A DNA stretch of 47,846 nucleotides, taken from assembly GCA_934565795.1 (NCBI GenBank), contig CAKTIM010000016.1, forward strand, positions 1 to 47,846. Direction: 5' to 3'. This DNA is from an uncultured Oscillospiraceae bacterium (GTDB lineage Bacteria > Bacillota > Clostridia > Oscillospirales > Oscillospiraceae). Of this stretch, positions 1,324 to 25,621 are shown in pieces. The notes below the pieces were generated by a model. The model was not told the origin of the DNA. It did no database searches and saw only the letters and a program-made list of their open reading frames with translations. A program made the position numbers and the translations under genes. Each line of letters opens with the position of its first letter. The first letter of the stretch is position 1.

Positions 1324-1768
1324 GTAGGGGTCGGCAACCTGCCGACCCTCAACGTTACGGTTTGGGTAGCAGTGGGGATGAACGTATAACCCGACGTATA
1401 CATCCCCCAAGCTTCCCTGTGGGGTGTTGCAGAGCGCAGCGAATCTTTAAATTACAATCATTGCCAGTGGCAATGATACCATAATCAAATAGCTGTCGCC
1501 GCAGCGACTGAAGAGGGCACTCAGGTAACGGTTTTGAAAGAGACTTGACTAAAAAGGTAGACGGTTAAACACTTTGAGTCCGTAGGGGCGGATACCAGCC
1601 GCCCGAAAGGTAATGAAACTGAGCTGTACAGACAAACCGCTCAATCTCGACACCCGGCGGGGCGACAGATTGCCGCCCCCTACGGACTCAGAAGCTTTTG
1701 GTGGTGTCCATTCAACCGGCAGCTCAATTCCGTAACATTGCGGGCGGCTGGTATCCGCCCCTACGGAG
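1324..1768. repeat. Hairpin repeat array 2 (composite, between capsid and next gene)
   Basis: A full composite array. Units in order: C palindrome 1328-1348, linker, AAGCTTCCCTGTGGGG arm, 64-bp palindromic element (1425-1490, core ATTGCC-AGT-GGCAAT), AGCTGTCGCCGCAGCGACTGAAGAGGGC arm, linker, A palindrome 1586-1604, linker, B palindrome about 1660-1680, linker, and inverted A palindrome 1742-1760. The same order recurs in arrays 3, 4, 6, 7 and 8. It fills the 509-bp gap between two phage genes. Confidence 0.9.
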
Positions 1769-4837: not shown

Positions 4838-5410
4838 CCCCGTAGGGGTCGGATCGAGGATAGAAATAGTTGAATGGCACCAGGAAAAACACCCGCCCCC
4901 GTAGGGGTCGGCAACCTGCCGACCCTCAATCTGACGGTTTCGATAGCAGTAACGACGAACGTATAACCTCAAGGGTAAATCCCCAAGCTTCCCTGTGGGG
5001 TGTTGCAGAGCGCAGCGAATCTTTAATAACAATCATTGCCGGTGGCAATGATACCATAATTAAATAGCTGTCGCCGCAGCGACTGAAGAGGGCACTCAGC
5101 GTATGGTTTCGAGAGAGACCCAACTAAAAAGGTAGACGGTTAAACACTTTGAGTCCGTAGGGGTGGTGCTCCGCGCAGCGAATCAAAATATCCATGATTG
5201 CCAGTGGCAATCATACAATTGATTCATCGGATACCAGCCGCCCGAAAGCCAACGAACGTGAGCTGTACAGACGAACCGCTCAATCCCGGTACCCAGCGGG
5301 GCGACAAATTGTCGCCCCCTACGAACTCAAAGATTTTTACATGTCACCATTCAACCGGCAGCTCAATCCCGGTAGCTGGCGGGCGGCTGGTATCCGCCCC
5401 TACGGAGGGT
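4838..5410. repeat. Hairpin repeat array 3 with nested insertion
   Basis: Starts 3 bp after a stop codon with a broken CCGTAGGGGTCGG half-unit, followed by a complete C palindrome at 4905-4925. A 65-bp palindromic element lies at 5001-5065 between the AAGCTTCCCTGTGGGG and AGCTGTCGCC arms. The following A unit is split after GTAGGGG by another copy of the palindromic element (5164-5227) and resumes as CGGATACCAGCCGCCCG. A perfect B palindrome at 5298-5318 and an inverted A palindrome at about 5383-5401 close the array. Confidence 0.9.
5164..5227 (+). mobile_element. 64-bp palindromic element nested inside an A-type repeat
   Basis: The element begins TGGTGCTCCGCGCAGCGAATC and ends TTGATTCAT. 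Inside it GAATCAA pairs with TTGATTC, and ATGATTGCC pairs with GGCAATCAT around a 3-nt loop. The flanks are GTAGGGG on the left and CGGATACCAGCCGCCCG on the right, which together make an ordinary A unit. It carries no coding capacity, so if mobile it would need a transposase in trans. Confidence 0.6.
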
Positions 5411-5445: not shown

Positions 5446-6201
5446 ATGGCACAAAAGAAGGAATATGTGGCCTCCCGGGAGGTTGAGGAGGCGCGGGAGG
5501 CGGTGCGGGCGCATCAGAAGGCGCAGCCGGGGGAATACCGCTCGGAGTACGACGGGGCCCTGCGGGAGGCGATGGATAAAATCCTCAATCAGAAGGATTT
5601 CCAGTACCGGCTGAACGGCGACGCGCTGTACCGCCAGTACCGGGCCCAGGCCGTGCAGGATGCCCAGCGGGCCATGTCCGATACTATGGGACAGGCGGCG
5701 GCCCTCACCGGGGGCTACGGCAGCTCCTATGCCCAGGGCGTGGGACAGCAGGCCTACGCCCGGCAGCTGGAGGGTCTGGCCGACCGCATCCCGGAGCTGT
5801 ACAGTCTGGCCATGGAGCAATATAAGCTCCAGGCCCAGGGCCTGCGGGACAAATATGACCTGCTGGCCGGAGCCCAGGGGGAGGAATACAGCCGCTATCA
5901 GGATTCCCTGTCCGCCTGGCAGGCGGAGGCCGAGCGGCTCCAGCGGCAGTATGCCGACTGGCGCGACAGCGACTACGGCGCGTACCGCGACCAGGTGGCC
6001 GACTGGAAATGGCAGGAGGAATTCGACGAGAACAAGCGCCGCTACGACCAGCAGTGGGCCGCGGCCCACCCGGCAAAGACCTATGCCGTGGGCGGCACCT
6101 CCCGGGCAAAGACGGAGAAGAAGAAAAGCAATCCCCTGCTGGGGGCCATCCTGGGCGCGGCCGCCGGTGTGGCGGCTGCCCGGAAAAGGAGCGGCAAATG
6201 A
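5446..6201 (+). CDS. Phage structural or internal virion protein, Gln/Tyr-rich helical
   Basis: A 251-residue protein with AAAAGGAG just upstream of the ATG. It is strongly helical and rich in Tyr, Gln, Arg and Ala. A glycine patch at about 86-98 ('LTGGYGSSYAQGVGQQAY') is followed by long helices and a C-terminal basic linker, then a short hydrophobic segment (NPLLGAILGAAAGVAAARKR). Such Gly/Ala hydrophobic ends occur in phage internal or ejection proteins that contact membranes, which is only an analogy. Its stop overlaps the next start (ATGA). No family name is assigned. Confidence 0.5.
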   Translation: MAQKKEYVASREVEEAREAVRAHQKAQPGEYRSEYDGALREAMDKILNQKDFQYRLNGDALYRQYRAQAVQDAQRAMSDTMGQAAALTGGYGSSYAQGVGQQAYARQLEGLADRIPELYSLAMEQYKLQAQGLRDKYDLLAGAQGEEYSRYQDSLSAWQAEAERLQRQYADWRDSDYGAYRDQVADWKWQEEFDENKRRYDQQWAAAHPAKTYAVGGTSRAKTEKKKSNPLLGAILGAAAGVAAARKRSGK

Positions 6202-7721
6202 ATCAGGTAGTCAGCCTCAGCGACGACGCCCGCGTCACACTGAAAATCACCACCAATCAGGCGAAAAATACCTCCACCGTCCGGGTGACCCGCCTGGCGG
6301 TGCGCAACCGGCAGGGCACGGATCACGGCGAATGCCTGCTGGTGGGCGACATCCGCATCAACGGCCTGCTGGCCGCCAACCTGGTGCTCAGCGGCAGCCA
6401 GCGCTGCCCGGTGCTCTATGACGCCAGCTGGGACTACGGCACCGAGAGCCTGTGGAGCGGCTACACCGCCTACGACCTGGAGATCCCCCACCAGGAGGAC
6501 GGCACGGCGGAGGTGACCGTGGCGGTGGCGGTGCAGATCTATACCTCCAGCCAGAAGCTGGTGGAGTATTTCGCCCGCAGCGCCGCCGCTTCCCTGCCCC
6601 GCATCCCCCGGGCCACCACCCTGTCGGCGGCGGCGACGCCCCTGGGGCAGACGCTGACGCTGACCCTGCACCGGGCCTCCGCCGGCTTCCGGGATACGGT
6701 CACTTGGTCGTGCGGGTCGGCTTCCGGCACCCTGGCGGCCCTCACGGCGGAGGATGCCCTGCATTGGGCTCTCCCCCTGACCCTGGCCGCCCAGGAGCCG
6801 GAGGATACCCAGGTGGAGCTCACCTTCGCCGTCACCACCTACGACGGGACGGACACGGTGGGCAGCAGCACCCTGCGCCTGCAATGCCCCATCCCGGCGG
6901 AGGTCATCCCCACCGCCTCCATCGCCGTCAGTGACCGGGCAGGCCACACCGCCAGCCACGGCGGCTACATCCAGGGCCAGAGCCAGGCCCAGGTGCAGCT
7001 GACGGCGGCGGGGGCCTACGGCTCGGAGATCCAGAAAACCGTCATCCGCTGCGGGTCGCTGACCCAGGAGGGGCAGACGGAGGCCTGCTTCGCCCTGGAA
7101 AAAGGCGGCAGCGTGGTGATCGAGGCCACCGTGACGGATTCCCGCCGCCGCACCGCCACCGTCCGGCAGCAGATCATCGTCCTGGCCTATGACAAGCCCG
7201 CCGTCCAGGTGACCCAGGCCTTCCGCTGCGACGCGGACGGCACGGCGCGCAGCAACGGCGAATACCTGTGCATCCGCTTCACCGCCCAATTGACCCCGGT
7301 GGAAAACGGCACGGCCAGCTACGCCGCCGTCAGCCGCATCCCCGGCGGCGGGGAGAGCAGCCGGGCGGAGCTGACCGGGTATACCGGCCAGTTCCAGGTC
7401 AGCGGCAGCGCCATCCTCCCCGCCGACCCGGACAGCAGCTTCGAGTGCACCGTGGAGGCAACGGACAGCTTCGCCACCACCGCCAGCGCCGCCGCCCTGG
7501 TGGGCATCGCCTTCGTGCTGCTGGATTTCAGCCGGGACGCCCGCGCCGTGGGCATCGGCATGCGCGCAGGCGCGGCGCAGACCCTGAGCATCGGCCTGAC
7601 CACCGACCTGAATGCCCACCGCCTGCAAAACCTCGCCCCACCCACCGCCCCCCAGGACGCCGCCACCAAAGCCTACGTCGACGCCGCCCTCCAGAATTTA
7701 AAGCAATCCCTGGGCCTGTAA
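6198..7721 (+). CDS. Phage tail fibre / DUF859-like receptor-binding protein
   Basis: A 507-residue protein starting at ATG 6198, overlapping the previous stop. An upstream in-frame ATG at 6009 lies wholly inside the preceding gene and was rejected. The N-terminal half is made of beta-rich modules resembling the DUF859 tail family and Ig-like repeats (for example 'TTLSAAATPLGQTLTLTLHRAS'). The C-terminal 60 residues hold 'GIGMRAGAAQTLSIGLTTDL' and 'DAATKAYVDAALQNL'; the DAATKAYVD motif is typical of phage fibre proteins. A role in host recognition is likely. It ends 7 bp before a repeat array. Confidence 0.65.
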   Translation: MNQVVSLSDDARVTLKITTNQAKNTSTVRVTRLAVRNRQGTDHGECLLVGDIRINGLLAANLVLSGSQRCPVLYDASWDYGTESLWSGYTAYDLEIPHQEDGTAEVTVAVAVQIYTSSQKLVEYFARSAAASLPRIPRATTLSAAATPLGQTLTLTLHRASAGFRDTVTWSCGSASGTLAALTAEDALHWALPLTLAAQEPEDTQVELTFAVTTYDGTDTVGSSTLRLQCPIPAEVIPTASIAVSDRAGHTASHGGYIQGQSQAQVQLTAAGAYGSEIQKTVIRCGSLTQEGQTEACFALEKGGSVVIEATVTDSRRRTATVRQQIIVLAYDKPAVQVTQAFRCDADGTARSNGEYLCIRFTAQLTPVENGTASYAAVSRIPGGGESSRAELTGYTGQFQVSGSAILPADPDSSFECTVEATDSFATTASAAALVGIAFVLLDFSRDARAVGIGMRAGAAQTLSIGLTTDLNAHRLQNLAPPTAPQDAATKAYVDAALQNLKQSLGL

Positions 7722-7727
7722 AACCAC

Positions 7728-8375
7728 CCCCCGTAGGGGCGGCTACCAGCCGCCCGAAACCCCACGGTTTCGATAGCAGTCCGTTGAATGAAAGCCGGAA
7801 AAACAACTGAGTTCCGTAGGGGTCGGCAACCTGCCGACCCTCAACCTCACGGTTTCGGAAGCAGTATAGATGAACGTATAACAACAAAGGATACACCCCC
7901 AAGCTTCCCTGTGGGGTGTTGCAGAGCGCAGCGAATCTTTAATTACAATCATTGCCGGTGGCAATGATACAATAATTAATTAGCTGTCGCCGCAGCGACT
8001 GAAGAGGGCACTCAGGTGATGGTTTCGTGGGAGATTTGACTAAAGAGGTACAGTGTTCAACACTTTGAGTCCGTAGGGGTGGTGCTCCGCGCAGCGAATC
8101 AAAATATCAATGATTGCCGGGGGCAATCATACAATTGATTCATCGGATACCAGCCGCCCGCAACCCAACGAACGTGAGCTGTATAGACCAACCGCTCAAT
8201 CCCGGTACCCAGCGGGGCGACAAATTGCCGCCCCCTACGAACTCAGAAAATTTTTGTGCATTCCACTCACCGTACTGCTATCGAAGTGACAACGTTGCGG
8301 GCGGCTGGTATCCGCCCTTGTGGATGGGGTGCGTACCATTCAACATACCGCTCTGTTCCGTTACGCTGGGGGGCA
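7728..8375. repeat. Hairpin repeat array 4 with nested insertion
   Basis: Order of units: a variant A palindrome (GGGCGGCT-ACC-AGCCGCCC, perfect 8-bp stem, about 7737-7755), C palindrome 7820-7840, palindromic element 7917-7981, CGCAGCGACTGAAGAGGGC arm, an A unit interrupted after GTAGGGG by a second palindromic element (8080-8143), B palindrome about 8214-8234, and a degenerate inverted A unit near 8298-8320 ending CCCTTGTGG. It separates the fibre gene from the lysis genes, a 690-bp gap with no other gene. Confidence 0.9.
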
Positions 8376-8413: not shown

Positions 8414-8974
8414 ATGACTACAATGCAAATTCAGCATCTTTTGGGGTATCTGGGTTATTATTCCGCTGCGGTGGATGGCGCTTGGGGGGCGCAGAGCAGC
8501 GGGGGGTGCCGGCGATTTCAGGCGGAGCATGGCCTGACGGCGGACGGTGTGCCCGGCCCGGCGACGCAGAAGCGGCTCCTTGAGGCCGTGGCCGATCCGG
8601 CGCGGCCGGAGCCGGATATCCCGGAATTCTGGCAGGATATCCAGTATTTCACCCGTTCAGACCCCTATATCGCCTGCTCCTGCGGGCGCTGCGGGGGCTT
8701 CCCGGCGGAGCCGTCGGAGCGGCTGATGCGCCTGGCGGACGCGGTGCGGCGGCGGGCGGGGCGGCCCATGGTGCCCACCTCCACCGTGCGCTGCAAGGAG
8801 CACAACGCGGCGGTGGGAGGCGTGGCCAATTCCCGGCATCTTCTGGGGCAGGCCATGGATTTCCAGATCCCCGGCCTGACGGCCCAGGAAATTCTGGCCC
8901 TTGTCCGCCAGCAGCCGGAGGTGGCCTACACCTACGCCATCGACGGCAGCACCGTCCACATGGACGTGACCTAG
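8414..8974 (+). CDS. Phage endolysin: peptidoglycan-binding domain plus M15 peptidase
   Basis: A 186-residue lysis enzyme. Residues 4-60 form a PG_binding_1 domain (VDGAWGAQS... FQAEHGLTADGVPGPATQKRL). Residues 72-186 form a peptidase M15-type D-Ala-D-Ala carboxypeptidase-like domain with the zinc ligands visible as H142 and D149 (SRHLLGQAMDF) and H182 in VHMDV. It would cleave the stem peptide of peptidoglycan at the end of the phage cycle. The ATG is preceded by AAAAAGGAG. It is followed 9 bp later by an XhlA-like gene and then a holin, the usual lysis cassette. Confidence 0.85.
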   Translation: MTTMQIQHLLGYLGYYSAAVDGAWGAQSSGGCRRFQAEHGLTADGVPGPATQKRLLEAVADPARPEPDIPEFWQDIQYFTRSDPYIACSCGRCGGFPAEPSERLMRLADAVRRRAGRPMVPTSTVRCKEHNAAVGGVANSRHLLGQAMDFQIPGLTAQEILALVRQQPEVAYTYAIDGSTVHMDVT

Positions 8975-13179: not shown

Positions 13180-15348
13180 GTGAAACGCAATCATAAAAAG
13201 CGGGCCCGGCGCGCCGTCGCCTGGGCGCTGGCCGCCTGCCTGGTGGCGGGCCTGGCGGTGATGCCCATGCTGGCCGCCCGGCAGGAGACCGCCGGGGAGC
13301 AGGCCGCCATCCGCTCCGCCCAGCCGGAATACCGGGATATCGATACCCGCCTGGTGGGCGGCGGACAGCTGGCGGGTCAGGCAGCCGTCGCCGTGGAGCT
13401 TCCGGCGGAGGTAAAGCTGACGGGCTACCTGGTGGAAAACGGCGACACCGTCCAGGCCGGGGATGCCATTGCCGCCGTAGACCCGGTGAGCGTAATGACT
13501 GCCATCGCCGCCGTGCAGCAGACGCTGGAGCACCTGTCCGGGCAGATCGCCGACGCGGCCTCCTCCGCCTCCACCCAGAATCTCACCGCCATCTCCGGCG
13601 GCGTGGTGAAGACCCTCTATGCCCAGCCGGGGGATAATGTGCAGGATGTGATGCTGGCGCACGGGGCATTGGCGGTGCTGTCGCTGGATGGCTATATGGC
13701 CGTGCAGCTGTCCGCCTCCGCCCAGCCGGGGCAGACGCTTACCGTCACCCTGCCTGACGGCACCCAGGTTCCGGGAACGGTCTATTCCAGCGTGAACGGC
13801 ACCCTCACCGTGACGGTGGAGGACGACGGCTACCCGGTGGGGGCAACCGTCACCGTGGCGGATGCGGCGGGGGAAAGCCTTGGCTCCGGGGCGCTGTACA
13901 TCCTCAGCCCCTGGAACGTGACGGCCTACGCCGGAACCGTGTCCCAGGTGTACGCGGTGGAGGGGGCCTCGGTGTACGCCGGGCAGACCCTGCTCCGGCT
14001 GGAGGGGCTGGGAGCCTCCGGCACATATCAGCAGCTGGTGGATCAGCACCACGAGTATGAGACGCTGATGCAGGAGCTGTTCCGGCTGTACCAGACGGAA
14101 ACCCTCACCACCCCCTGTGACGGAGTGGTGACGGGCATCGACCCGGACGGGGACTTCCTGCTGCAAAGCGCGGATTCCTCCGGCCTGGCCGGAAAGGCGC
14201 TGGTTCTCATGTCCGATGTGGAATACCTGTCCGACGACCCGACGGAGGAGCCGGAGCAGCCCGGCCAGGATGCCCCCCAGGAGGACGGCGGGGACGAAAA
14301 CAAGGATGGAAACGAAGAGAACGGCGGGAATCCAGACCCGGAGCCGGAGCCAGACCCAGACCCGGAGGAACCGGCCTGCACCGGCGCGGCGGACTGCCCC
14401 GCCAAGACCCACAACCCCGGCTGCCTGTCCCAGCAGCCGTCCCATACCTACTGGGGTTACCCGGCCAAGATCATCACCCTGGCCGGTACCAGCGCCGCCG
14501 TGCGGCGGGCGGAGACCGCCGTCGCCGTGGAGGATCTGGCGCAGCTGCCCAGCGTCAGCACGGATGCCGCCGCCATGACCGTGGAGCAGACCTATGAGAG
14601 CAGCCTCTTCTCCGGCCTGTCCGCCGGGGATACGGTGCTGCTGGTGTTCGACGAGACGGGGACGCTGGTCATGGTCGCCTGGCTCTCCTCCGAGCCGGCC
14701 CAACCCACCGAGCCGACGGAGCCCACCGGCCCCACCCAGCCGACGGAGCCCACCGATCCCACAGCCCCCACCCAGCCCGGCGGCGGTCAGAGCGGCGGCT
14801 TCTCCGGCGGAGGCGGCGCATCCTTTGGCGGCGGTCAGCAGACCCAGAGCAGCTTCACCCTGTACAGCCTGGAAAAAATCACCGTGGCTTCCGTCACCTC
14901 CCAGGCGCACATGACCCTGGAAATCACCGTGGACGAGCTGGACATCACAAAGGTGCAGCCGGGCCAGTCCGCTGCCGTCACCCTGGACGCCCTGCCCGGA
15001 GAGCGCTTCGAGGCCACCGTCTCCCAGGTGGCCGCCAGCGGCACCAACGAGGGCGGCAGCAGCAAATTCACCGTGGAGCTGACCCTGGAAAAGGACAGCC
15101 AGATGCTCCCAGGCATGCAGGCCAGCGCCTTCCTCACCCTGGATACCGCGCAGAACGTCCTGTGTGTCCCCGCCGCCGCCCTGGGCGAGGAGAACGGCGA
15201 GCCCGTCCTCTACACCGCCCTCGACTCGGACACCGGCACCCCCACCGCCCCCCTCAGCGTCACCCTCGGCGCCGCCGACGCCGACTACACCCAAATCCTC
15301 ACCCCCCTCCCATCCAACACCACCGTATACTACCCCTACTACGAATAA
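13180..15348 (+). CDS. Second HlyD/MacA-like adaptor, paralogue of first gene of operon
   Basis: A 722-residue protein. Start taken at GTG 13180, because GGAGGG (13166-13171) sits 8 bp upstream; the in-frame ATG at 13165 overlaps that RBS. It has a basic start, one membrane segment (AVAWALAACLVAGLAVMPMLA), then lipoyl and barrel domains clearly homologous to the first adaptor (shared LYAQ.GD...HGAL..LSLDGYMAV). An acidic Glu-Pro-Asp linker (about 355-395), a Cys/His motif (CTGAADCPAKTHNPGC), a Pro-Thr-Glu linker, a Gly-rich segment and a C-terminal barrel (MLPGMQASAFL) follow. Two adaptors around one ABC pair is unusual. Confidence 0.8.
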   Translation: MKRNHKKRARRAVAWALAACLVAGLAVMPMLAARQETAGEQAAIRSAQPEYRDIDTRLVGGGQLAGQAAVAVELPAEVKLTGYLVENGDTVQAGDAIAAVDPVSVMTAIAAVQQTLEHLSGQIADAASSASTQNLTAISGGVVKTLYAQPGDNVQDVMLAHGALAVLSLDGYMAVQLSASAQPGQTLTVTLPDGTQVPGTVYSSVNGTLTVTVEDDGYPVGATVTVADAAGESLGSGALYILSPWNVTAYAGTVSQVYAVEGASVYAGQTLLRLEGLGASGTYQQLVDQHHEYETLMQELFRLYQTETLTTPCDGVVTGIDPDGDFLLQSADSSGLAGKALVLMSDVEYLSDDPTEEPEQPGQDAPQEDGGDENKDGNEENGGNPDPEPEPDPDPEEPACTGAADCPAKTHNPGCLSQQPSHTYWGYPAKIITLAGTSAAVRRAETAVAVEDLAQLPSVSTDAAAMTVEQTYESSLFSGLSAGDTVLLVFDETGTLVMVAWLSSEPAQPTEPTEPTGPTQPTEPTDPTAPTQPGGGQSGGFSGGGGASFGGGQQTQSSFTLYSLEKITVASVTSQAHMTLEITVDELDITKVQPGQSAAVTLDALPGERFEATVSQVAASGTNEGGSSKFTVELTLEKDSQMLPGMQASAFLTLDTAQNVLCVPAAALGEENGEPVLYTALDSDTGTPTAPLSVTLGAADADYTQILTPLPSNTTVYYPYYE

Positions 15349-15353
15349 CCCCA

Positions 15354-16100
15354 CCGCCCCCCCGTGGGGGCGGATACCAGCTGCCCACAACCCAACGGTT
15401 TCGGAAGCAGTAAGTTGAATGGTAATATGTAAAATTCTCTGAGTCCCGTAGGGGTCGGCAACCTGCCGACCCTCAACCCCACGGTTTCGATAGCAGTAAA
15501 GAACAACGTATACCGTAAAAGGATACATCCCCAAGCTTCCCTGTGGGGGAAGCTGTCGCCGCAGCGACTGAAGAGGGCACTCAGCGTATGGCTTTGAGAG
15601 AGACCCAACTAAAAAGGTACAGTGTACAACGTTTTGAGTGCGTAGGGGCGGATACCAGCCGCCCGCAACGTCGCGGAATTGAGCTGTCAGTTGAATGAAA
15701 ATTGCCAAAAGCTTCTGAGTTCGTAGGGGGCGGCAATCTGTCGCCCCGCCGTCTACCGAAATTGAGCGTTTCGTCTATACAGCTCACGTTCGTTACCTTT
15801 CGGGCGGCTAATATCCGCCCCTACGGGTGGCCTGCTTTCATTCACCGCACCCTTTCAGAAAATCCTACTGCGTCAGGCCCTCTTCAGTCAGCCCTACGGG
15901 CTGCCAGCTAATAAATCGAGGTATGATTGCCACCGGCAATCATTGATATTTTGATTCGCTGCGCGGAGCACCACCCCAAGGGAAGCTTTGGTGGTAGCGG
16001 AAGCTGGTACCATTCAACGGACTGCTATCAAAACCGCCAGGTTGAGGGGCGACAAATTGCCGCCCCCTACGGGCTCAGAAACTTTTGGCGGCGTCCATTC
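15354..16100. repeat. Hairpin repeat array 5, holding an 'empty site'
   Basis: Begins 5 bp after a stop with a variant A unit (CGTGGGGGCGGATACCAGCTGCCC). Next come C palindrome 15452-15472 and an uninterrupted AAGCTTCCC...GGGGGAAGCTGTCGCC arm (15533-15560), which is the empty form of the site occupied by the palindromic element in arrays 2, 3, 4, 6, 7 and 8. Then A (about 15646-15664), B and inverted A units follow, with a reversed palindromic element at 15910-15973. A last B palindrome near 16047-16067 ends CCTACGGGC. No gene is seen. Confidence 0.9.
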
Positions 16101-16138
16101 AACCGGCAGTTCTTGCTGCCGGGGCGGTTAGGAGGCGC

Positions 16139-16167
16139 TTGACAAACGGGCTTAATGGCGGTATCAT
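16139..16167 (+). promoter_or_regulatory. Promoter of cbiA riboswitch transcript
   Basis: TTGACA at 16139-16144 and TATCAT at 16162-16167, separated by exactly 17 bp. Transcription would start near 16174, a few bases before the riboswitch P1 helix. This is the best -35/-10 pair upstream of the cobalamin genes. Confidence 0.8.
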
Positions 16168-16181
16168 AGCGGAAAAAAGAG

Positions 16182-16359
16182 CATTTAAGTGCCGCCCGGT
16201 ATCGGGCGGAGAATAGGGAACCCGGTGGGAATCCGGGGCGGTACCGCCACTGTCAGTGCGGAGGTGCCGCGCGGGGGGCATGTCCCCGGCCATTGGATTT
16301 TTTCCGAGAAGGCCCGCGCGGCGCACGGTGATGCACGAGCCAGGAGACCTGCTTAAATG
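16182..16359 (+). ncRNA. Cobalamin riboswitch aptamer
   Basis: A P1 helix is formed by CATTTAAG (16182-16189) and CTTAAATG (16352-16359), a perfect 8-bp pair. Between them are the class hallmarks in order: AATAGGGAA, GGTGGGAATCC, GCGGTACCGCCACTGT, and near the 3' end the B12-box core GCCAGGAGACCTGC (16339-16352). The aptamer binds adenosylcobalamin or a related cobalamin and represses downstream expression. Position directly upstream of cbiA and an intrinsic terminator fits transcriptional attenuation. Confidence 0.93.
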
Positions 16360-16413
16360 AAGCTACCCCCGCCCCGGTCATTGGGCGAGGTCTGCCCGCC
16401 CCGCAGAAATCCG

Positions 16414-16451
16414 GCTGCGGCGATTCATTGCGAATCGCCGCAGCTTTTTAT
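16414..16451 (+). terminator. Riboswitch-controlled intrinsic terminator before cbiA
   Basis: GCTGCGGCGATTC pairs with GAATCGCCGCAGC (13 bp, 5-nt loop) and is followed directly by TTTTTATT. It lies between the aptamer and the RBS of cbiA, so it is most simply the OFF-state expression platform, closed when cobalamin is bound. Confidence 0.88.
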
Positions 16452-16468
16452 TATGGGAGGAACAAGCC

Positions 16469-17812
16469 ATGAACAATACGCCACGGCTTTTGCTGGCCGG
16501 GGTCAGCAGTGGGTGTGGGAAGACCACGGCCATGTGCGCGGTGCTGCAGGCGCTGGTGAACCGGGGGCTGCGGGTGGGCGCGTTCAAGTGCGGGCCGGAT
16601 TACATCGATCCCATGTTCCACAGCCGGATCATCGGGGCCAAAAGCGGGAATCTGGATCTGCACTTCTTTTCGGAAAACACCGCCCGCTTTCTGCTGGCTA
16701 AAAACGCCGCCGACCGGGATGTGAGCGTGATCGAGGGGGTCATGGGCTATTACGACGGCCTGGGCCTGACCTCCAGCCGGGCCAGCTCCTATGAGGTGGC
16801 CCAGGTCACCCGCACCCCCGCCGTGCTGGTGGTGAACGCCAAGGGGGCGTCCCTGTCGGTGCTGGCGGTGGTCAAGGGCTTTCTGGACTTCCGGCCGGAG
16901 CCGCACATCCGGGGGGTGCTGCTGAACCAGTGCAGCGCCATGGCCTACCCCGCCCTGGCGGCGGAGATCGAGGCCCAGCTGGGCGTCAAATGCTATGGCT
17001 ACCTGCCAAAAATGGACGGGGCCACCCTGGAAAGCCGCCATCTGGGCCTGGTGACGGCGCAGGAGGTGGCGGGCCTGCGGGAGAAAATGCAGCTTCTGGC
17101 GGCCCAGGCGGAAAAAACCATTGACCTGGACGGCCTGCTTAACCTGTCCCGCACCGCCCCGGCGCTGGAATACACCCCCATCGTCCTGCCACGGCGGGAG
17201 AAAATCCGGGTGGCGGTGGCCAGGGATCGGGCCTTCTGTTTCTATTATGAGGACAGCCTGGACGCCCTGCGGGAGATGGGGGCGGAGATCGTGGAATTCA
17301 GCCCCCTGGCGGACGCCCGCCTGCCGGAGGATATCCAGGGCCTCTACTTAGGCGGCGGCTACCCGGAGCTGTACGCCCGCCAGCTGGAGGAGAACATCTC
17401 CATGCGCCAAAGCATTTATGACGCCCTGGCCGCGGGGCTGCCCTGCATCGCCGAGTGCGGCGGCTTCATGTACCTGACGCAGGCCATCGGCGAATGTAAA
17501 ATGGCGGGCTTTCTGCCGGGGAAATGCTTTGATACCGGCCGCCTGACCCGCTTCGGCTATATCACCCTCCAGGCGGAAAAGGACAACCTGCTCTGCCCCG
17601 CCGGAGCGGCCATCCCCGCCCACGAATTCCACCACTGGGACTGCACCTCCCCCGGCAGCGACTTCACCGCCCGCAAATCCCCCACCCGCCACTGGCCCTG
17701 CGCTGTGGCGACCGACAAGCTCTACGCCGGATACCCCCATTTCCACTTTTACGCCAACCTGGATTTTTTGAAGAATTTCTACAAAGCCTGCCTGAAACGC
17801 ACCCACCCGTAG
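16469..17812 (+). CDS. cbiA: Cobyrinate a,c-diamide synthase CbiA
   Basis: A 447-residue enzyme that amidates the a and c side chains of cob(II)yrinate using glutamine and ATP. The N-terminal dethiobiotin-synthetase-like domain has P-loop GVSSGCGKTT (11-20) and 'KCGPDYIDPMFH'. The C-terminal class I glutaminase-like domain has 'LYLGGGYPELYA' and catalytic Cys330 in AECGGFMYL, with the late motif HFHFYANL. Length is typical. RBS GGGAGG is at 16455-16460, behind the riboswitch terminator. Its TAG stop (17810-17812) is part of the CCGTAGGGGTCGG arm of a repeat unit, so the repeat sets the exact C-terminus. Confidence 0.95.
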   Translation: MNNTPRLLLAGVSSGCGKTTAMCAVLQALVNRGLRVGAFKCGPDYIDPMFHSRIIGAKSGNLDLHFFSENTARFLLAKNAADRDVSVIEGVMGYYDGLGLTSSRASSYEVAQVTRTPAVLVVNAKGASLSVLAVVKGFLDFRPEPHIRGVLLNQCSAMAYPALAAEIEAQLGVKCYGYLPKMDGATLESRHLGLVTAQEVAGLREKMQLLAAQAEKTIDLDGLLNLSRTAPALEYTPIVLPRREKIRVAVARDRAFCFYYEDSLDALREMGAEIVEFSPLADARLPEDIQGLYLGGGYPELYARQLEENISMRQSIYDALAAGLPCIAECGGFMYLTQAIGECKMAGFLPGKCFDTGRLTRFGYITLQAEKDNLLCPAGAAIPAHEFHHWDCTSPGSDFTARKSPTRHWPCAVATDKLYAGYPHFHFYANLDFLKNFYKACLKRTHP

Positions 17813-18850
17813 GGGTCGGCAACCTGCCGACCCTAAACCTGACGGTTTCGGAAGCAGTAAAGATGAACGTATATCCTCAAGGATACATCCCCTGAGCTTC
17901 CCTGAGGGGTGTTGCAGAGCGCAGCGAATCTTTAATTACAATCATTACCGGTGGCAATGATACAATAATTAATTAGCTGTCGCCTCAGCGACTGAAGAGG
18001 GCACTCAGGTAATGGTTTTGAGAGAGACCCAACTAAAAAGGTAGACGGTTAAACATTCTGAGTCCGTAGGGGCGGATACCAGCCGCCCGAAACCTATCGG
18101 TTTTGATAGCAGTCCGTTGAATGGGAGCAGGCAAAACAATTGAGTCCGTAGGGGGCGGCAATTTGTCGCCCCGCCGTCTACCGAAATTGAGCATTTCGTC
18201 TATACAGCTCACGTTCGTTACCTTTCGGGCGGCTAATATCCGCCCCTACGGAGTGGCGCGTACCATTTTCAACGCACCCTTAAAAAAGGACGTACTGCGG
18301 TAGGCCCTCTTCAGTCAGACTTGTCGGTTCCGAAGAGCCGCCAAGCCTGCCAGCTTCCTCCAAGGGAAGCTTTTGGAAGAAGCTGTCGCCTGCTCCCATT
18401 CAACGTTCTGCTATCGAAACCGCAACTTCGCGGGGCGACAAATTGCCGCCCCCTACGAACTCAGAAACTTTTGGTAATGTTCATTCAACTGACAGCTCAA
18501 TTCCGCAACGTTGCGGGCGGCTGATATCCGATGAATCAATTGTATGATTGCCACTGGCAATCATTTAGATTCTGATTCGCTGCGCGGAGCACCGCCCCTA
18601 CGGATCGGCGTGTACCATTCAACGCACCCTTTTAAAAATCCTACTGCGGTAGGCCCCCCTCAATCAGCCCTACGGGCTGTCAGCTCCCCTATTGGGGAGC
18701 CAAGAAAAATGTACGAATTCGCCTTGGTGCATTCCAAATGGTATCCTGCGTACTGCCGGAAACCCCTCCGGCGCTGCGCGCCGTCCTCAGCCCTGCATTA
18801 AGCAGCTGTACGCCGTCGAGGACGGCTACACCTGCTAAACCTTTCAGGGG
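17806..18850. repeat. Hairpin repeat array 6 (largest), between cbiA and cbiC
   Basis: Overlaps the last codons of cbiA. It contains C palindrome 17813-17833, palindromic element 17910-17974, A unit near 18070-18088, B unit near 18153, inverted A, B near 18432, and an inverted A unit split by a reversed palindromic element (18531-18593). A CTCCCCTATTGGGGAGC hairpin follows. The right end is a different repeat (about 18710-18850) also seen near 38670 and 47440, here interrupted by about 50 bp that are absent in those copies. Over 1 kb with no convincing gene or second riboswitch. Confidence 0.9.
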
Positions 18851-18887
18851 AGGTTATGACACAACAATTATAAAAGGAGGCATCCCC

Positions 18888-19511
18888 ATGTTTGAGAATA
18901 TCAGGCCGATGGATATTGAAAAGCGGAGCTTTGAGATCATTACGGAGCTGCTGGGTGATACGGTGCTGGAGCCGGAGAATGAGCTGGTGATCAAGCGGGT
19001 GATCCACACCACGGCGGATTTTGACTATGTGAAGAACCTGACCTTCTCCCCCCACGCGGTGAGCCGGGGCATCCAGGCGCTGCGCAGTGGGTGCGACATT
19101 GTGACGGACACCCAGATGGCGAAGGCGGGGATCAACAAGACCATCCTGGCCCGGCTGGGCGGGCAGGTGCACTGCTTCATGGCGGACGAGGACGTGGCGA
19201 AGGAGGCCAAGGAGCGGGGGGTGACCCGGGCCATCGTCTCCATGGAGCACGCCGCCCGGCTGGGGAAACCCTGCATTTTTGCCATCGGCAACGCCCCCAC
19301 GGCGCTGATCTCCATCCATGAGCTGATCGAGAAGGGACAGCTCACCCCGGCGCTGGTGATCGGGGTGCCGGTGGGCTTTGTGAACGTGGTGGAGAGCAAG
19401 GAGCTATTCGTGGATTCGGACGTGCCCCACATCATCGCCCGGGGACGCAAGGGCGGCAGCAACGTGGCGGCGGCCATCTGCAACGCCATGCTCTATCAGA
19501 TCACACGCTGA
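18888..19511 (+). CDS. cbiC: Cobalt-precorrin-8 methylmutase CbiC
   Basis: A 207-residue enzyme that moves the C11 methyl to C12, giving cobyrinate. Start at ATG 18888, preceded by AAAAGGAGG (18872-18880). A longer in-frame start at 18738 would translate repeat DNA. The segment VIHTTADFDY carries His40, matching the catalytic His of the CobH/CbiC family. Other family segments are 'SGCDIVTDTQMAKAGI' and 'IARGRKGGSNVAAAICNAM'. Length is normal. The stop overlaps the cbiD start (TGATG). It may be read from the cbiA promoter through the 1-kb array or from an unseen promoter. Confidence 0.94.
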   Translation: MFENIRPMDIEKRSFEIITELLGDTVLEPENELVIKRVIHTTADFDYVKNLTFSPHAVSRGIQALRSGCDIVTDTQMAKAGINKTILARLGGQVHCFMADEDVAKEAKERGVTRAIVSMEHAARLGKPCIFAIGNAPTALISIHELIEKGQLTPALVIGVPVGFVNVVESKELFVDSDVPHIIARGRKGGSNVAAAICNAMLYQITR

Positions 19512-20650
19512 TGGAGGCCTACATCGAGAAGGACGGCAAGCGCCTGCGCCTGGGCTACACCACCGGCTCCTGCGCCGCTGCCGCGGCAAAGGCTGCCGCC
19601 TGGATGCTGCTGACGGGGCGGCGGAAGGAAAGCGTCACCCTGGACACCCCCAAGGGCATCCGGCTGGATCTGGCCGTCCGGGAAATCACCATGGGGCCGG
19701 AGGCGGTCTCCTGCGCCATCGAAAAGGACAGCGGGGACGACCCGGATGTCACCCATGGCACCCTGATCTTCGCCACGGTGACCAGGGCCGACACCCCCGG
19801 CGTCACGGTGGACGGGGGCCAGGGCATCGGCCGGGTGACCAAGCGGGGCTTGGATCAGAGCGTGGGCAGCGCCGCCATCAATTCCGTGCCCCGGAAGATG
19901 ATTATTGAAAATGTAACCGAGGTCATGGCCCTGACGGATTACCGGGGTGGCCTGCGGGTCATCATCTCCGCCCCGGAGGGGGAGACTCTGGCAAAAAAGA
20001 CCTTCAATCCCCGGCTGGGCATCGTGGGGGGCATCTCCATCCTGGGCACCACCGGCATTGTGGAGCCCATGAGCGAGCAGGCCCTGGTGGACACCATCCG
20101 GGTGGAGCTGCGCCAGCACCGGGCCGCCGGGCAGGAATACGCCCTGCTCACCCCCGGCAATTACGGTGCGGATTTCATCCGGGACGAGCTGGGGCTTGAC
20201 CTGAACGCTGCCGTCCAGGTGTCCAATTTCCTGGGCGACGCCCTGGATATCTGCCGGGAGCTGGGCTTCCGGGGGGCGCTGCTGGTGGGCCACATCGGCA
20301 AGCTGGTGAAGGTGGCGGGCAACATGCTGAACACCCACTCCAAATACGGCGACTGCCGCATGGAGATTCTGGCCGCCCACGCCGGTGCCGCCGGGGTGCC
20401 GCAGCCCCGGCTGGAGGAAATCCTGGACTGCGCCGCCTGCGACGACGCCATCCGCATCCTGCGCGAGGAGGGCAAACAGGAGCCGACCCTGCGCCGCGTC
20501 ACCGCCCGCATCCAAGAAAACCTGCGCCACCGCGCCGGAGAAATGGAAGCGGAGGCCATTGTATTTTCCAAAGTCTACGGCATCCTGGGCATGACCGATA
20601 ACGCCGAAGCGCTGCTGGAAATAATCAAGCACCCGCCCCCCACAGCCTGA
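19511..20650 (+). CDS. cbiD: Cobalt-precorrin-5B C1-methyltransferase CbiD
   Basis: A 379-residue protein of the CbiD family, which methylates C1 of the corrin ring in the anaerobic pathway. The hallmark 'LGYTTGSCAAAAAKAA' is at about 14-29. Further on come 'GVTVDGGQGIGRVTKRGL' and the Gly-rich 'GILGTTGIVEPMSE'-like segment. The length is normal. ATG overlaps the cbiC stop by one base, so the pair is translationally coupled. A repeat array begins only 8 bp after the stop and separates it from cbiF. Confidence 0.95.
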   Translation: MEAYIEKDGKRLRLGYTTGSCAAAAAKAAAWMLLTGRRKESVTLDTPKGIRLDLAVREITMGPEAVSCAIEKDSGDDPDVTHGTLIFATVTRADTPGVTVDGGQGIGRVTKRGLDQSVGSAAINSVPRKMIIENVTEVMALTDYRGGLRVIISAPEGETLAKKTFNPRLGIVGGISILGTTGIVEPMSEQALVDTIRVELRQHRAAGQEYALLTPGNYGADFIRDELGLDLNAAVQVSNFLGDALDICRELGFRGALLVGHIGKLVKVAGNMLNTHSKYGDCRMEILAAHAGAAGVPQPRLEEILDCAACDDAIRILREEGKQEPTLRRVTARIQENLRHRAGEMEAEAIVFSKVYGILGMTDNAEALLEIIKHPPPTA

Positions 20651-20657
20651 CGGCTGC

Positions 20658-21104
20658 CCCCCGTAGGGGTCGGCAATTTGTCGACCCTCAACCCGGCGGT
20701 TTTTGAGTGCTAAAGAAAAACGTATAACTTAAAGGGTACATCTCTGGCTTCCCTGAGGGGTGTTGCAGAGCGCAGCGAATCTTTAATAACAATCATTGCC
20801 GGTGGCAATGATACCATAATTAAATAGCTGTCGCCTCAGCGACTGAAGAGGGCACTCAGGTAACGGTTTTGAGAGAGATTTCACTAAAAAGGTACAATGT
20901 CAAACATATTGAGTCCGTAGGGGCGGATACCAGCCGCCCGAAAGCCAACGAACGTGAGCTGTACAGACGAACCGCTCAATCCCGGTACCCGGCGGGGCGA
21001 CAAATTGCCGCCCCCTACGAACTCAGAAACTTTGGTAATGTTTATTTAACTGACAGCTCAATCCCAGTACACGGCGGGCGGCTGGTATCCGCCCCTACGG
21101 GGGT
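20658..21104. repeat. Hairpin repeat array 7, between cbiD and cbiF
   Basis: Units in the standard composite order: C palindrome 20667-20687 (variant arm GTCGACCC), palindromic element 20761-20825 inside the CCTGAGGGG/AGCTGTCGCC arms, A unit near 20921-20939, B unit near 20995-21015, and inverted A near 21075-21093 ending CCCCTACGGGG. It fills 485 bp between two cobalamin genes. No promoter or riboswitch was seen in it. Confidence 0.9.
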
Positions 21105-21134
21105 ACTTTTTATAAACACACAGGAGGAACGTAT

Positions 21135-21890
21135 ATGGTACATTTTGTGGGCGCGGGGAGTGGCGCGGTGGATTTGATTACGGTGCGGGGGGCGCGGCTG
21201 CTGGGGCAGTGTGATGTGGTGATCTACGCGGGCAGCCTGGTCAACCCGGAGGTGCTGCAATACTGCAAGCCCGCCTGTCAGGTGCACGACAGCGCGAAAA
21301 TGACCCTGGAGGAAGTGATCGACGTGATCGTCCGGGCGGAGCGCCAGGGGCTGACCACCGTGCGGCTGCACACTGGGGATTCCAGCATCTATGGGGCGGT
21401 GCATGAGCAGTTCGCCGAGCTGGACAGGCGGGGCATCGATTACGATGTGTGCCCCGGCGTCAGCGCCTTCTGCGGCGCTGCGGCGGCGCTGCGGGCGGAG
21501 TACACCCTGCCGGAGGTGAGCCAGACCGTCATCATCACCCGTGCGGCGGGCAGAACGCCGGTGCCCCAGGGGCAGTCCATCCGGGAGCTGGCCGCCCACG
21601 GGGCCACCATGGTGCTCTTCCTCAGTACCTCGCTGACGGAGCGGCTCCAGGCCGACCTTCTGGCCGGGGGCTACGCCCCGGAGACCCCGGCGGCGGTGGT
21701 GTACAAGGCCACCTGGCCGGAGGAAAAGATCTTCCGCTGCACCGTGGGCACTCTGCACCAGACCGTCACGGAAAATCATCTGACCAAGACCAGCCTGATC
21801 GTGGTGGGCGACTGCCTGGGCGACCGGGTGGTGCGTTCGCTTTTGTATGACCCCGGCTTCACCACCGAATTCCGGGAGGCCGCCAAGTGA
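21135..21890 (+). CDS. cbiF: Cobalt-precorrin-4 C11-methyltransferase CbiF
   Basis: A 251-residue SAM-dependent tetrapyrrole methylase. It opens with 'MVHFVGAGSGAVDLITVRGARLL', the N-terminal family motif. 'RLHTGDSSIYGAVHEQ' is the SAM-binding GDssiYG segment and 'CPGVSAFCGAAAALRAEYTLPEV' the conserved substrate loop. These features favour CbiF/CobM over other methylases. RBS CAGGAGGA is at 21121-21128. Its TGA overlaps the GTG start of cbiG. It would methylate C11 of cobalt-precorrin-4. Confidence 0.93.
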   Translation: MVHFVGAGSGAVDLITVRGARLLGQCDVVIYAGSLVNPEVLQYCKPACQVHDSAKMTLEEVIDVIVRAERQGLTTVRLHTGDSSIYGAVHEQFAELDRRGIDYDVCPGVSAFCGAAAALRAEYTLPEVSQTVIITRAAGRTPVPQGQSIRELAAHGATMVLFLSTSLTERLQADLLAGGYAPETPAAVVYKATWPEEKIFRCTVGTLHQTVTENHLTKTSLIVVGDCLGDRVVRSLLYDPGFTTEFREAAK

Positions 21891-22906
21891 ACGCCGCCCT
21901 GTTTGCTTACAGCGCCGCCGGGTGCGGCACCGCCCGGCGGGTAATGGAATGCCTGCCGGAGCTGGATTTTCGCTGCTACGCCGCCGCCCGGATCGCCAGC
22001 CCCCCCTTCGCACCCATCCCCAAGCCCTCCGGGGACTTTTACGGGGAACTTTTCGCCGGCGTTCAGGCCATGATCTTTGTGGGCAGCACCGGCATCGCCG
22101 TGCGGCAGATCGCGCCCCATCTGCGCGGCAAGGCCGCCGACCCGGCGGTGGTCGTCCTGGATGAGCGGGGGCAGTTCGTCATCTCCCTGCTCTCCGGCCA
22201 CATCGGCGGGGCCAACGCCTTGACCGCCCGGCTGGCCGCCGCCCTGGGGGCCACGGCGGTGATTACCACCGCCACGGACATCAACCGCCGCTTCAGCGTG
22301 GACGCCTGGGCGGCCCGGAACGGCTGCCGGATCTCCAGCCTCAGCGCGGCCAAGGCGGTGTCCGCCGCCATTTTGGAGCACGACGTGCCCCTGTGCGCCG
22401 ACGTGCCCGTGACCGGCCCCCTGCCCGCCGGGGTATATTCGGGCCAGTCCGGCCCGGTGGGCATCCACATCGGATACCGGGTGTGCAGCCCCTTTGCTGT
22501 CACGCTGCATCTGATTCCCCCCATGCTCCACCTGGGGCTGGGCTGCCGCCGGGGCACGGACGCCGCCTGCATCCGCCGGGCGGTGGAGCAGGTGTGCAGC
22601 GAGCAGACCATCGACCCCAGGGCCATCGCCTGCGCCGCCTCCATCGATCTGAAGGCCGACGAGACGGGGCTGCTGGAATACTGTCGGGAATCAAATATAC
22701 CCATTCGGTTCTATTCCGCCGACGCCCTGCGGGCAGTGCAGGGGGAATTCACCCCCTCGGCTTTCGTCCAGCGCGTCACGGGGGTGGACAATGTGTGTGA
22801 ACGGGCGGCGCTGCTGGGCGCGGCGCGCCTGATCGTCAAAAAAACCTCCCTGGACGGCGTGACTGTCGCCCTGGCGGAGGAAACATGGGAGGTACGCTTT
22901 GAATAA
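21887..22906 (+). CDS. cbiG: Cobalt-precorrin-5A hydrolase CbiG
   Basis: A 339-residue protein starting at GTG 21887 (overlap GTGA with cbiF). The N-terminal CbiG region carries 'MIFVGSTGIAVRQIAPHL' and 'GQFVISLLSGHIGGANALT'. The C-terminal CbiG domain carries 'LHLGLGCRRGTDAACIRRAV' and 'IASIDLKADETGLLE'-like sequence. The enzyme opens the delta-lactone of cobalt-precorrin-5A with loss of acetaldehyde. Its presence, with CbiD, marks the anaerobic B12 route. It overlaps cbiH by 8 bp. Confidence 0.93.
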   Translation: MNAALFAYSAAGCGTARRVMECLPELDFRCYAAARIASPPFAPIPKPSGDFYGELFAGVQAMIFVGSTGIAVRQIAPHLRGKAADPAVVVLDERGQFVISLLSGHIGGANALTARLAAALGATAVITTATDINRRFSVDAWAARNGCRISSLSAAKAVSAAILEHDVPLCADVPVTGPLPAGVYSGQSGPVGIHIGYRVCSPFAVTLHLIPPMLHLGLGCRRGTDAACIRRAVEQVCSEQTIDPRAIACAASIDLKADETGLLEYCRESNIPIRFYSADALRAVQGEFTPSAFVQRVTGVDNVCERAALLGAARLIVKKTSLDGVTVALAEETWEVRFE

Positions 22907-23630
22907 GCTATCAGTCGTGGGCATCGGCCCCGGAAACGAAGAGAATATGACCCTGGCGGCGCGGAATGCCCTGGAGGAATGCGACGTGATTGTGGGCTAC
23001 ACCGTGTATGTGGACCTGGTAAAGGAGCGCTACCCGGACAAGGAATTCCTCACCACCCCCATGACCAGGGAGGCCCAGCGCTGCCGCCTGGCCCTGGACG
23101 AGGCGAGAAAGGGACGGCACGTGGCCATGGTCTGTTCCGGCGACAGCGGGATCTACGGCATGGCCGCCCTGGTCTATGAGCTGCGGGGAGAGAGCGCCGA
23201 CCCGGAGGTGCAGGTGATCCCCGGCCTGACGGCGGCGTGCAGCGGCGGGGCGCTGCTGGGCGCGCCGCTGACCCATGACTTCGCCGTTATCAGCCTCAGC
23301 GACCGGCTGACCCCCTGGGAGAAGATCGAAAAGCGCCTGGAATGTGCCGCCCTGGGGGATATGAGCATCGTGCTCTATAACCCGCAGAGCAAGGGTCGCC
23401 CGGATAATCTGCGCATGGCCTGCGACATTCTGCTGCGCCACCTGCCGGAGGATCGTCCCTGCGGCGTGGCCCATTCCATCGGCCGGGCCGGAGAGGGCCG
23501 CAGCTTTATGACCCTGGGCCAGCTGCGCAATGCCCAGCTTGATATGTTCAGCACCGTGTTCATCGGCAACGCCATGACCAGAATGATCGGGGAAGAGATG
23601 GTCACCCCCAGAGGATACCGGGATGTATAA
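22899..23630 (+). CDS. cbiH: Precorrin-3B / cobalt-factor III C17-methyltransferase CbiH
   Basis: A 243-residue tetrapyrrole methylase starting at TTG 22899 with GGGAGG (22887-22892) correctly spaced inside the end of cbiG. It starts 'MNKLSVVGIGPGNEENMTLAARNAL'. 'VCSGDSGIYGMAALV' is the SAM-binding motif, and 'SLSDRLTPWEKIEKRL' and 'LYNPQSKGRPDNL' are characteristic of CobJ/CbiH. It performs ring contraction and C17 methylation. No fused C-terminal extension is present. It overlaps the next gene by 8 bp. Confidence 0.93.
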   Translation: MNKLSVVGIGPGNEENMTLAARNALEECDVIVGYTVYVDLVKERYPDKEFLTTPMTREAQRCRLALDEARKGRHVAMVCSGDSGIYGMAALVYELRGESADPEVQVIPGLTAACSGGALLGAPLTHDFAVISLSDRLTPWEKIEKRLECAALGDMSIVLYNPQSKGRPDNLRMACDILLRHLPEDRPCGVAHSIGRAGEGRSFMTLGQLRNAQLDMFSTVFIGNAMTRMIGEEMVTPRGYRDV

Positions 23631-25581: not shown

Positions 25582-25590
25582 AAATTCTGA

Positions 25591-25621
25591 TTGACTTTCC
25601 CCCGGTGCTGTCGTTTATAAT
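25591..25621 (+). promoter_or_regulatory. Promoter for the U32-like gene
   Basis: TTGACT at 25591-25596 and TATAAT at 25616-25621 with a 19-bp spacer (TTTATA at 25614-25619 would give 17). It starts 10 bp after the cbiJ-E-T stop, so the next gene can be expressed independently of the cobalamin genes. Confidence 0.65.

Follow-up and report, generated by a model that had tools for sequence, protein, structure and literature searches.

REPs of the GTAG super-family are defined by a GTAG motif beside a short hairpin (Di Nocera et al. 2013, PMC3733652; Nunvar et al. 2010, PMC2817692). In the available excerpts of these papers, such REPs and the BIMEs made of them combine a GTAG foot with a short GC-rich hairpin, reach high copy number, are mostly intergenic, form dimers with the tags outside or inside, flank RAYT genes and can provide a TAG stop codon through the foot. 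In the excerpted text of Bertels and Rainey (2011, PMC3116915), the apparent unit is an inverted REP pair, the REPIN, and the same REP flanks the RAYT gene. For the E. coli RAYT, TnpA-REP, PMC6006769 discusses residues W94, Q95 and R104 for GTAG recognition and calls the role of W94 unclear.

The traits listed for GTAG-type REPs and BIMEs recur in a set of long intergenic arrays that we found in the window, by which we mean the whole stretch of DNA analysed (47,846 bp, 63% GC), the flanking of RAYT genes by REPs being seen in relatives. Compared with the systems described in those excerpts, the present arrays belong to a Clostridia lineage ("Firmicutes" and "Clostridi" are absent from the main text of PMC3733652, and the excerpt of PMC6006769 mentions Clostridia only for subclass 1.1 and in a reference title), contain many head-to-tail hetero-pairs as well as composites, about 445 bp long, in which a foreign element is nested, and keep an order that is fixed within a species but opposite in direction in another. 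The arrays are very probably BIMEs of GTAG-type REP hairpins, moved by a RAYT (HUH-Y1) encoded elsewhere in the genome.

The arrays are made of three hairpins, A (GTAGGGGCGGATACCAGCCGCCC; R1 in our scripts), B (GTAGGGGGCGGCAATTTGTCGCCCC; R2) and C (GTAGGGGTCGGCAACCTGCCGACCC; R3). As an earlier note on this DNA had proposed, covariance models of the three palindromes, one for A and one for B and C jointly, were run over the whole window with filters off. They recovered 48 intact units (20 A and 28 B/C) and 3 degenerate A units found by the covariance model only, which together with 3 A units interrupted by a 64-bp element and 1 truncated C unit give 55 GTAG-footed units in 13 arrays. The remaining matches with E values up to 0.1 were the same hairpins via the opposite strand or the other model, or pieces of the split A units, besides weak matches at 32198 and 13441 (inside ORFs) and at 40497-40519 (in a gap). 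The arrays and the features within them were as follows, with the strand of each unit in brackets.

149 to 258: array 1; B (minus), A (minus), without a plus unit; from the covariance models
1322 to 1766: array 2; C (plus) 1322-1349, arm palindrome with a 64-bp-type element, A (plus) 1580-1605, B (minus) 1658-1685, A (minus) 1741-1766; from the covariance models
1425 to 1490, plus strand: 64-bp-type element of the T subtype, about 66 bp, after the GGGG of the arm palindrome of array 2
4840 to 5405: array 3; truncated C (plus), C (plus), A (plus) split by a 64-bp element (5164-5227), B (minus), A (minus)
7731 to 8323: array 4; A (plus), C (plus), A (plus) split by a 64-bp element (8080-8143), B (minus), degenerate A (minus)
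15362 to 16072: array 5; degenerate A (plus), C (plus), A (plus), B (plus), A (minus), 64-bp element (about 15910-15973, minus), B (minus)
17807 to 18603: array 6, in the cbiA/cbiC gap; C (plus), A (plus), B (plus), A (minus), B (minus), A (minus) split by a 64-bp element (18531-18594)
17810 to 17812, plus strand: TAG of a REP foot in array 6, which is the stop codon of the cbiA ORF
20661 to 21100: array 7, in the gap from cbiD to the methylase gene that follows (labelled CbiL in our scripts); C (plus), A (plus), B (minus), A (minus)
26681 to 27198: array 8; C (plus), A (plus), B (minus), A (minus), B (minus)
31059 to 31427: array 9; A (plus), B (plus), A (plus), C-type (minus)
33840 to 34357: array 10; A (plus), B (plus), C (minus), A (minus), C-type (minus)
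34981 to 35250: array 11; A (plus) with its tag partly lost, B (plus), C (minus)
38820 to 39253: array 12; B (plus), 64-bp element in the arm palindrome (about 38921-38984), A (plus), B (minus), A (minus)
42534 to 42597, minus strand: array 13 of the earlier note; solitary 64-bp element after the GGGG of another palindrome, with no GTAG unit
47610 to 47718: array 14; A (plus), B (plus), with no more units up to the end of the window

GTAGGGG hairpins occur, as had been claimed, in 13 of 14 arrays, the remaining one (42460-42640) holding the 64-bp element only. The long order attributed in common to arrays 2, 3, 4, 6, 7 and 8 was seen both in the sequence and as repeat families D1, D2 and D7, and array 10 carries it in reverse, together with an extra C.

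Each unit has a GTAG foot at its 5' side, with the hairpin directly 3' of it and a 3-nt loop. The stem has 9 bp in B and C, and in most A units it consists of 6 bp, a mismatch and one more pair. GTAG thus lies beside an imperfect palindrome, and it is present in 48 of 48 aligned units, a count to be read with the fact that the units had been chosen by GTAGGGG. All 9 pairs form in each of the 16 distinct B/C sequences; one pair varies at both of its bases (G-C to T-A) and another at a single base, and the 7 invariant pairs are uninformative either way on pairing. The B/C covariation score was higher than in all 500 shuffles, but the number of pair types did not exceed that of the shuffles. Folding gave the A hairpin no strong stability, 7 of 200 shuffles doing equally well. 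The copy number is above chance (55 units in 47.8 kb), with 51 matches to GTAGGG plus hairpin in the window against 5.3 per permuted tag. The units are also extragenic: 51 of the 55 lie outside the 30 listed ORFs, which cover 77% of the window with untrimmed starts, and this rises to 54 of 55 with trimmed starts. The four overlapping units are at 17807 (last 6 nt of cbiA) and at 34981, 35059 and 47610 (upstream part of two longest-start ORFs). Altogether, the arrays cover 5.9 kb of about 10.8 kb of non-ORF sequence in the contig.

Several further features accompany the arrays. A second palindrome family, not GTAG-tagged, reads AAGCTTCCC..GGGAAGCT, then a hairpin, then GACTGAAGAGGGC; it lies at 31224-31263, with similar stretches in other arrays, and its GACTGAAGAGGG was absent from all 106 loci searched. 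Promoter-like sequences (TTGAGA/TCGAGA-18-TACAAT/TACAGT) occur within the composite at 20869-20898, 15594-15623 and 26891-26920, and 9 promoter-like sites were found in 15300-27300 against 2.9 expected. Phage-like genes at 297-1313, 6009-7721 and 8414-8974 (PF13252/PF25209 capsid, DUF859, peptidase M15) are spaced by REP arrays, which is possibly the picture of an old prophage invaded by repeats. At 45521-47638, a minus-strand ORF of up to 705 aa gave no match in a Pfam search; since its upstream part overlaps array 14, the true start is probably further in.

In all 11 arrays of mixed orientation in the window, every plus unit precedes every minus unit, so that the tags point outward. Under the assumption of independent units, p = 1.3e-10 for this order; the units are not independent, the arrays being copies of one another or sharing ancestry, and the value shows no more than a fixed order. 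With a looser script, 8 of 9 mixed arrays were outward, the exception being a false match at 15339 within an ORF. Twelve arrays have plus units, and CGTAGGGG is intact in the outermost of these in 10 arrays (those at 15362 and 34981 are degenerate); 12 have minus units, and CCCCTACG is intact in the outermost of these in 11 (the one at 8298 is degenerate). Array 1 (149-258) has no plus unit, so the claim that each array shows the plus tag at its left end is slightly too strong.

Spacing was also regular. Of the 9 outward junctions between intact units, 7 join A to B or C with a tag-to-tag distance of 100-103 nt; among the 24 same-direction neighbours, 13 are A followed by B or C at 80-87 nt, head-to-tail A-B measuring about 81 nt. 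Inverted pairs at regular spacing, the hallmark of BIMEs and REPINs, are accordingly present in these window junctions, and in the stretches of a relative, G607, 24 of 24 mixed arrays are outward. Among the REP pairs of G607, 18 were listed, 17 of them 107-110 bp long and one 95 bp. The available excerpt of PMC3116915 describes the inverted pair as such, whereas the pairs of the window usually mix types and are stacked into longer composites.

The direction of the arrays was then compared between relatives. For G607, 395 kb were examined (the first 20 kb of contigs C1-C19, plus C44), and the tags point outward in all 24 mixed arrays. In 292 kb of a second relative, G242, whose contigs were chosen for holding pattern matches (C28 for its RAYT), 9 of the 13 mixed arrays are wholly inward and 1 is wholly outward. 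Matches amounted to 67 against 18.7 per permuted tag in the G607 stretches, and to 66 against 31.7 in those of G242, both backgrounds being above that of the window. The rule of outward termini, as formulated in the earlier note, stands for the window and G607 and does not extend to G242; the order of the arrays is fixed inside the window and inside G607, and its direction differs across species.

This polarity also bears on how the arrays grew. No minus-plus junction exists among the 55 units of the window. Insertion or duplication within an existing pair keeps the plus-then-minus order, whereas whole pairs added at the ends would create minus-plus junctions, so that nested growth, with pairs inserted within older pairs, is favoured over accretion at the ends. 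The growth by accretion that had been suggested is in this respect not borne out.

A second repeat is nested in the arrays. It is a hairpin element of 64-66 bp with two subtypes, folds as a nested hairpin and has 12 copies in the window, all 12 starting directly 3' of GGGG. To within a few bases, the copies are located as follows.

1425-1490, 5001-5065, 5164-5227, 7917-7982, 8080-8143, 15910-15973, 17910-17975, 18531-18594, 20761-20825, 26783-26848, 38921-38984 and 42534-42597: copies of the 64-bp element

Three copies sit in A hairpins, 8 in the arm palindrome and 1 in another palindrome, and the uninterrupted A site, of which the window has 10 exact copies, represents the empty site. The core pattern of one subtype matched 6 times in the window against 0 expected in 100 shuffles. 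The element also follows GGGG in six viral contigs (L101-L106), in two distinct contexts. Insertion of IS200/IS605 elements uses a one-sided target without duplication, and the target of the 64-bp element, on one side and with no duplication, recalls this mode by analogy. Its nesting directly after GGGG is a new or unusual feature.

Two of the arrays could be compared with loci that lack them. The distance from cbiD to the next methylase gene is 484 bp in the window and at most 25 bp in 67 of the 75 relative loci with both genes adjacent; GTAGGG was found on neither strand of five relative cbiD gaps of 219-777 bp. From the cbiA stop to the homologous cbiC start there are 1,075 bp in the window, and in 12 of 12 relatives inspected the cbiA frame runs into the cbiC start. 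The last residues of cbiA and cbiD in the window differ from those of the relatives. By this comparison of sequences, in which all the cobalamin-locus relatives are other species, arrays 6 and 7 are insertions that split cobalamin gene pairs which overlap or abut in relatives. GTAG feet serving as stop codons, like that of cbiA here, are reported for REPs in the excerpted text of PMC3733652. A cobalamin riboswitch lies at 16170-16370, directly after array 5 and before cbiA.

As a GTAG beside a short hairpin is the mark of REPs, a matching transposase was sought in relatives; the window itself has no RAYT, and no similarity to one was found in it. A first search with PF01797 returned weak matches among genomes of the genus of G001. 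Many of these matches had GTAG hairpins within or next to them, and a profile, A1, was built from 16 of the proteins. H94, H96 and Y154 are invariant in all 16, as are Q134 and R143, and W133 is present in 15, the spacing of W133, Q134 and R143 being that of W94, Q95 and R104 in E. coli TnpA-REP. The best match of A1 to a solved structure by sequence was 4er8 (TnpA-REP; E 1.5e-12), which was also the best fold match (E 1.8e-8, TM 0.66) of a predicted model (pLDDT 88) of a protein 98% identical to the G607 RAYT. In HUH motif, conserved and presumably catalytic tyrosine, W-Q-R spacing and best sequence and fold match, the relatives' proteins thus resemble the RAYT/TnpA-REP described in the excerpts of PMC6006769 and PMC8266576. 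They differ in falling just under an NCBIfam cut-off, since REP_Tyr_transpos (NF047646) was the best family for 4 of 4 proteins at 63.8-77.6 bits against the 80 bits demanded, and in having a REP pair in the coding sequence at 32 of 60 loci. Some public homologues have already been named RayT by JGI, so that RAYTs in such bacteria are not new as genes.

Profile A1 matched in 62 of the 295 genomes of the order and in 34 of the 61 genomes of the genus of G001. An A-like pattern occurred in 5 of the 295 genomes, all 5 with a RAYT. In the genus of G001, the median ratio of tags to reversed control was 0.88 with a RAYT and 0.31 without (one-sided Mann-Whitney p 6e-7, an optimistic value because the genomes are related), and tags exceeded twice the control number in 9 of the 61 genomes. 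By the CGTAGGGG pattern, 18 of the 34 RAYT genomes show no tag excess, and G631 shows one without a detected RAYT. The RAYT-flanking hairpin GTAGGGYGGGGTYATGACCCCRCC was found in 18 of the 61 genomes, in up to 92 copies, and 0 times in the reversed control; 15 of these 18 have a RAYT, and 3 have none detected, including G594 with 28 copies.

The closest tie to the window came from G607, in which we counted 405 tags against 54 in the control. Its single detected RAYT has GTAGGGGCGGCTATCAGCCGCCC on both flanks, and the window holds GTAGGGGCGGCTACCAGCCGCCC, one loop base away, twice. With T or C in the loop, the G607 hairpin was counted 181 times in G607 and 30 times in G582; three other genomes have 5 between them and the remaining 56 of the 61 have none, that is, at most 3 copies in each of the 59 genomes other than G607 and G582. 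The one G582 RAYT examined (L128) is flanked by another hairpin. The G607 RAYT with its A-like flanking hairpin is the best link between the repeats of the window and a RAYT. The match is not general, since the hairpins inside the RAYT of G242 (GTAGGGGCGGATANNATCCGCCC) are not among the 14 commonest array hairpins of that genome. We had at first entertained a RAYT-less G242; PF01797 gave 0 matches there and profile A1 gave 1, and the idea was abandoned, PF01797 alone having missed many RAYTs. Strong PF01797 matches (L111-L119) were also set aside: no GTAGGGG hairpin lay near them (2 stray GTAGGGG in 9 loci), and they look like ordinary IS200 transposases. No GTAG hairpin was present within 600 nt of L120 and L121.

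The most surprising part of the relatives' system is the presence of REPs built into RAYT genes, which does not bear directly on the window. We examined 60 non-redundant RAYT loci (identical protein cores merged; only ORFs of at least 100 aa at E 1e-20, the profile matches outnumbering these loci), and all 60 had a GTAG hairpin in the gene or within 300 bp. A REP pair lay inside the ORF at 32 loci, one hairpin inside at 10 (including L185, whose hairpin is false and which is truly of the flank type), hairpins on both flanks at 17 and on one flank at 1. The genes with an internal pair, in two loops around the HUH motif, are listed below.

L100, L122, L132, L135, L138, L139, L142, L144-L149, L152 and L155: RAYT genes with an internal REP pair
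L157-L159, L161-L164, L166-L168, L180, L181, L184, L187, L197, L200 and L202: RAYT genes with an internal REP pair, continued

In a set of 30 RAYT loci the two inner sites are nearly constant, usually about 120-210 nt past the start of the domain and 150-220 nt before its end, the tags pointing outward with the HUH motif between them and the stems varying among genomes. The inner REP kept one reading frame in 34 of 36 plus cases and in 32 of 38 minus cases, counts that include L185 (plus, false hairpin) and L122 (minus, read at the wrong copy). Eight of the 9 flank-type proteins in A1 lack the first loop; in L099 a loop is present at that place. As controls, 8 permuted tags together gave 92 matches inside RAYT genes, the GTAG count, restricted to the two inner sites, being 74, and around the genes 79 GTAG hairpins stood against 36 matches over 5 permuted tags. 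Intragenic REPs in other genes are known from the excerpt of PMC3733652, and no mention of a REP pair within a RAYT gene was found in the excerpts of that paper, PMC6006769 and related REP/RAYT literature. The A-to-A unit of the window measures 182 nt, close to the roughly 190 nt of the REP pair in RAYT genes; in view of the lack of RAYT similarity in the window, we rejected descent and took the match for a coincidence.

A CbiD search of genome contigs gave relatives of at most 78% identity (80 of 152 loci kept), and GTAGGGG with a hairpin was present in 3 of these 80 loci, with 1-2 each. Viral contigs contained neither the exact A pattern nor the B/C pattern. With 1 mismatch, the B/C pattern had no match in the 300 genomes searched from the family of G002, and with 2 mismatches it matched in 13 of 250 genomes of the family of G001, mostly as other sequences. 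The lack of exact B/C hairpins elsewhere is expected if each species has its own set of REPs, and it is equally a gap in the evidence. Plasmids gave no match to the window repeats, and phage records gave 2 short partial ones to the arm/64-bp region. Homology of the linkers between the window and G607, good by eye, was dropped after a weak profile test: the best E was 0.097, with 6 of 8 matches at E up to 1 within listed G607 pairs, and both the reversed control and the opposite search direction gave 0 matches. Among the papers listed in literature searches, none described the window's repeat family, an absence from print that is only weakly supported. The statement that these repeats lacked a functional description fits these searches as far as the sequence family goes, but the GTAG REP class is well described.

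Three other explanations were weighed against the RAYT-driven one. The arrays might be a classical MITE family with terminal inverted repeats, mobilised by a DDE transposase acting on double-stranded DNA, the GTAGGGG hairpins being merely its ends. The recurrence of composites with inverted ends in six arrays, and the insertions seen as arrays 6 and 7, are what such a family would leave behind; yet lone units and pairs exist in relatives, the units have a one-sided foot and a hairpin of their own in place of one long terminal repeat, and the hairpins flank or sit within a Y1 transposase gene at each of the 60 relative loci, which makes this explanation improbable. The earlier note had called the arrays MITE-like or BIME-like. 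The first term is apt in the REPIN sense of an inverted pair with its tags outward, as in the mixed G607 arrays, and for the nested 64-bp element; the second is supported by the REP anatomy of the units and the matching RAYT in relatives. Its observation was confirmed and its interpretation partly supported.

Selection for the hairpins at the RNA level (as terminators, processing sites or stabilisers of 3' ends), with their spread being secondary, would agree with the maintained pairing of the B/C stems and with the position of arrays 6 and 7 between genes of one operon, where they are probably transcribed. Against it, no Rfam match was obtained in the arrays up to E 0.5, and the 21 terminator-like sites (11.3 expected) in 15300-27300, a region with 19 intact units, overlap one unit (21091-21104), others lying in the 64-bp element; relatives, moreover, do without arrays at both cbi junctions. 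On the terminator overlap and the empty Rfam search, terminators or Rfam RNAs were rejected as the main explanation, and an RNA origin is unlikely, although the arrays may have acquired a regulatory role later. Growth solely by local duplication and gene conversion, with no transposition, could account for the composite shared by six arrays and for the recurrent head-to-tail A-B or A-C neighbours, but related stretches are spread over different gaps, in either direction (inverted repeats I1-I25), and two of the arrays separate genes that in relatives overlap or abut, so that we consider it very improbable.

The arrays are very likely RAYT-driven, the evidence on the mover coming from relatives. 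In the mechanism that we infer, a RAYT of the host, a small HUH-Y1 transposase, would bind and nick the hairpin as single-stranded DNA and would copy or move REPINs, inverted REP pairs whose outward tags lie about 100 nt apart, into other intergenic gaps, and larger composites of such pairs would be moved likewise. In this lineage the pairs would have become nested and stacked, and the hairpins contain the second, 64-bp element after GGGG. We infer no benefit to the host; the arrays are probably parasites which it tolerates and which can also supply transcripts with stop codons and hairpins. In relatives, the REP type varies by genome while its place in the RAYT gene is nearly fixed, and this gene may be a master copy, a substrate or a self-regulator. 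We put forward tentatively, as a possibility with the balance against it, that in Oscillospiraceae-like gut Clostridia the RAYT gene is all three for the REPs of its genome, and that arrays like those of the window result from it, built by pairs inserting in pairs, which would give a species-fixed polarity. The arrays matter for gene annotation as well, since they interrupt operons and provide stop codons. Once tied to RAYTs, the unexplained filler of Clostridia assemblies would become a record of transposition, and the coevolution of transposase and repeat could be tested directly on RAYT genes that carry their own REPs.
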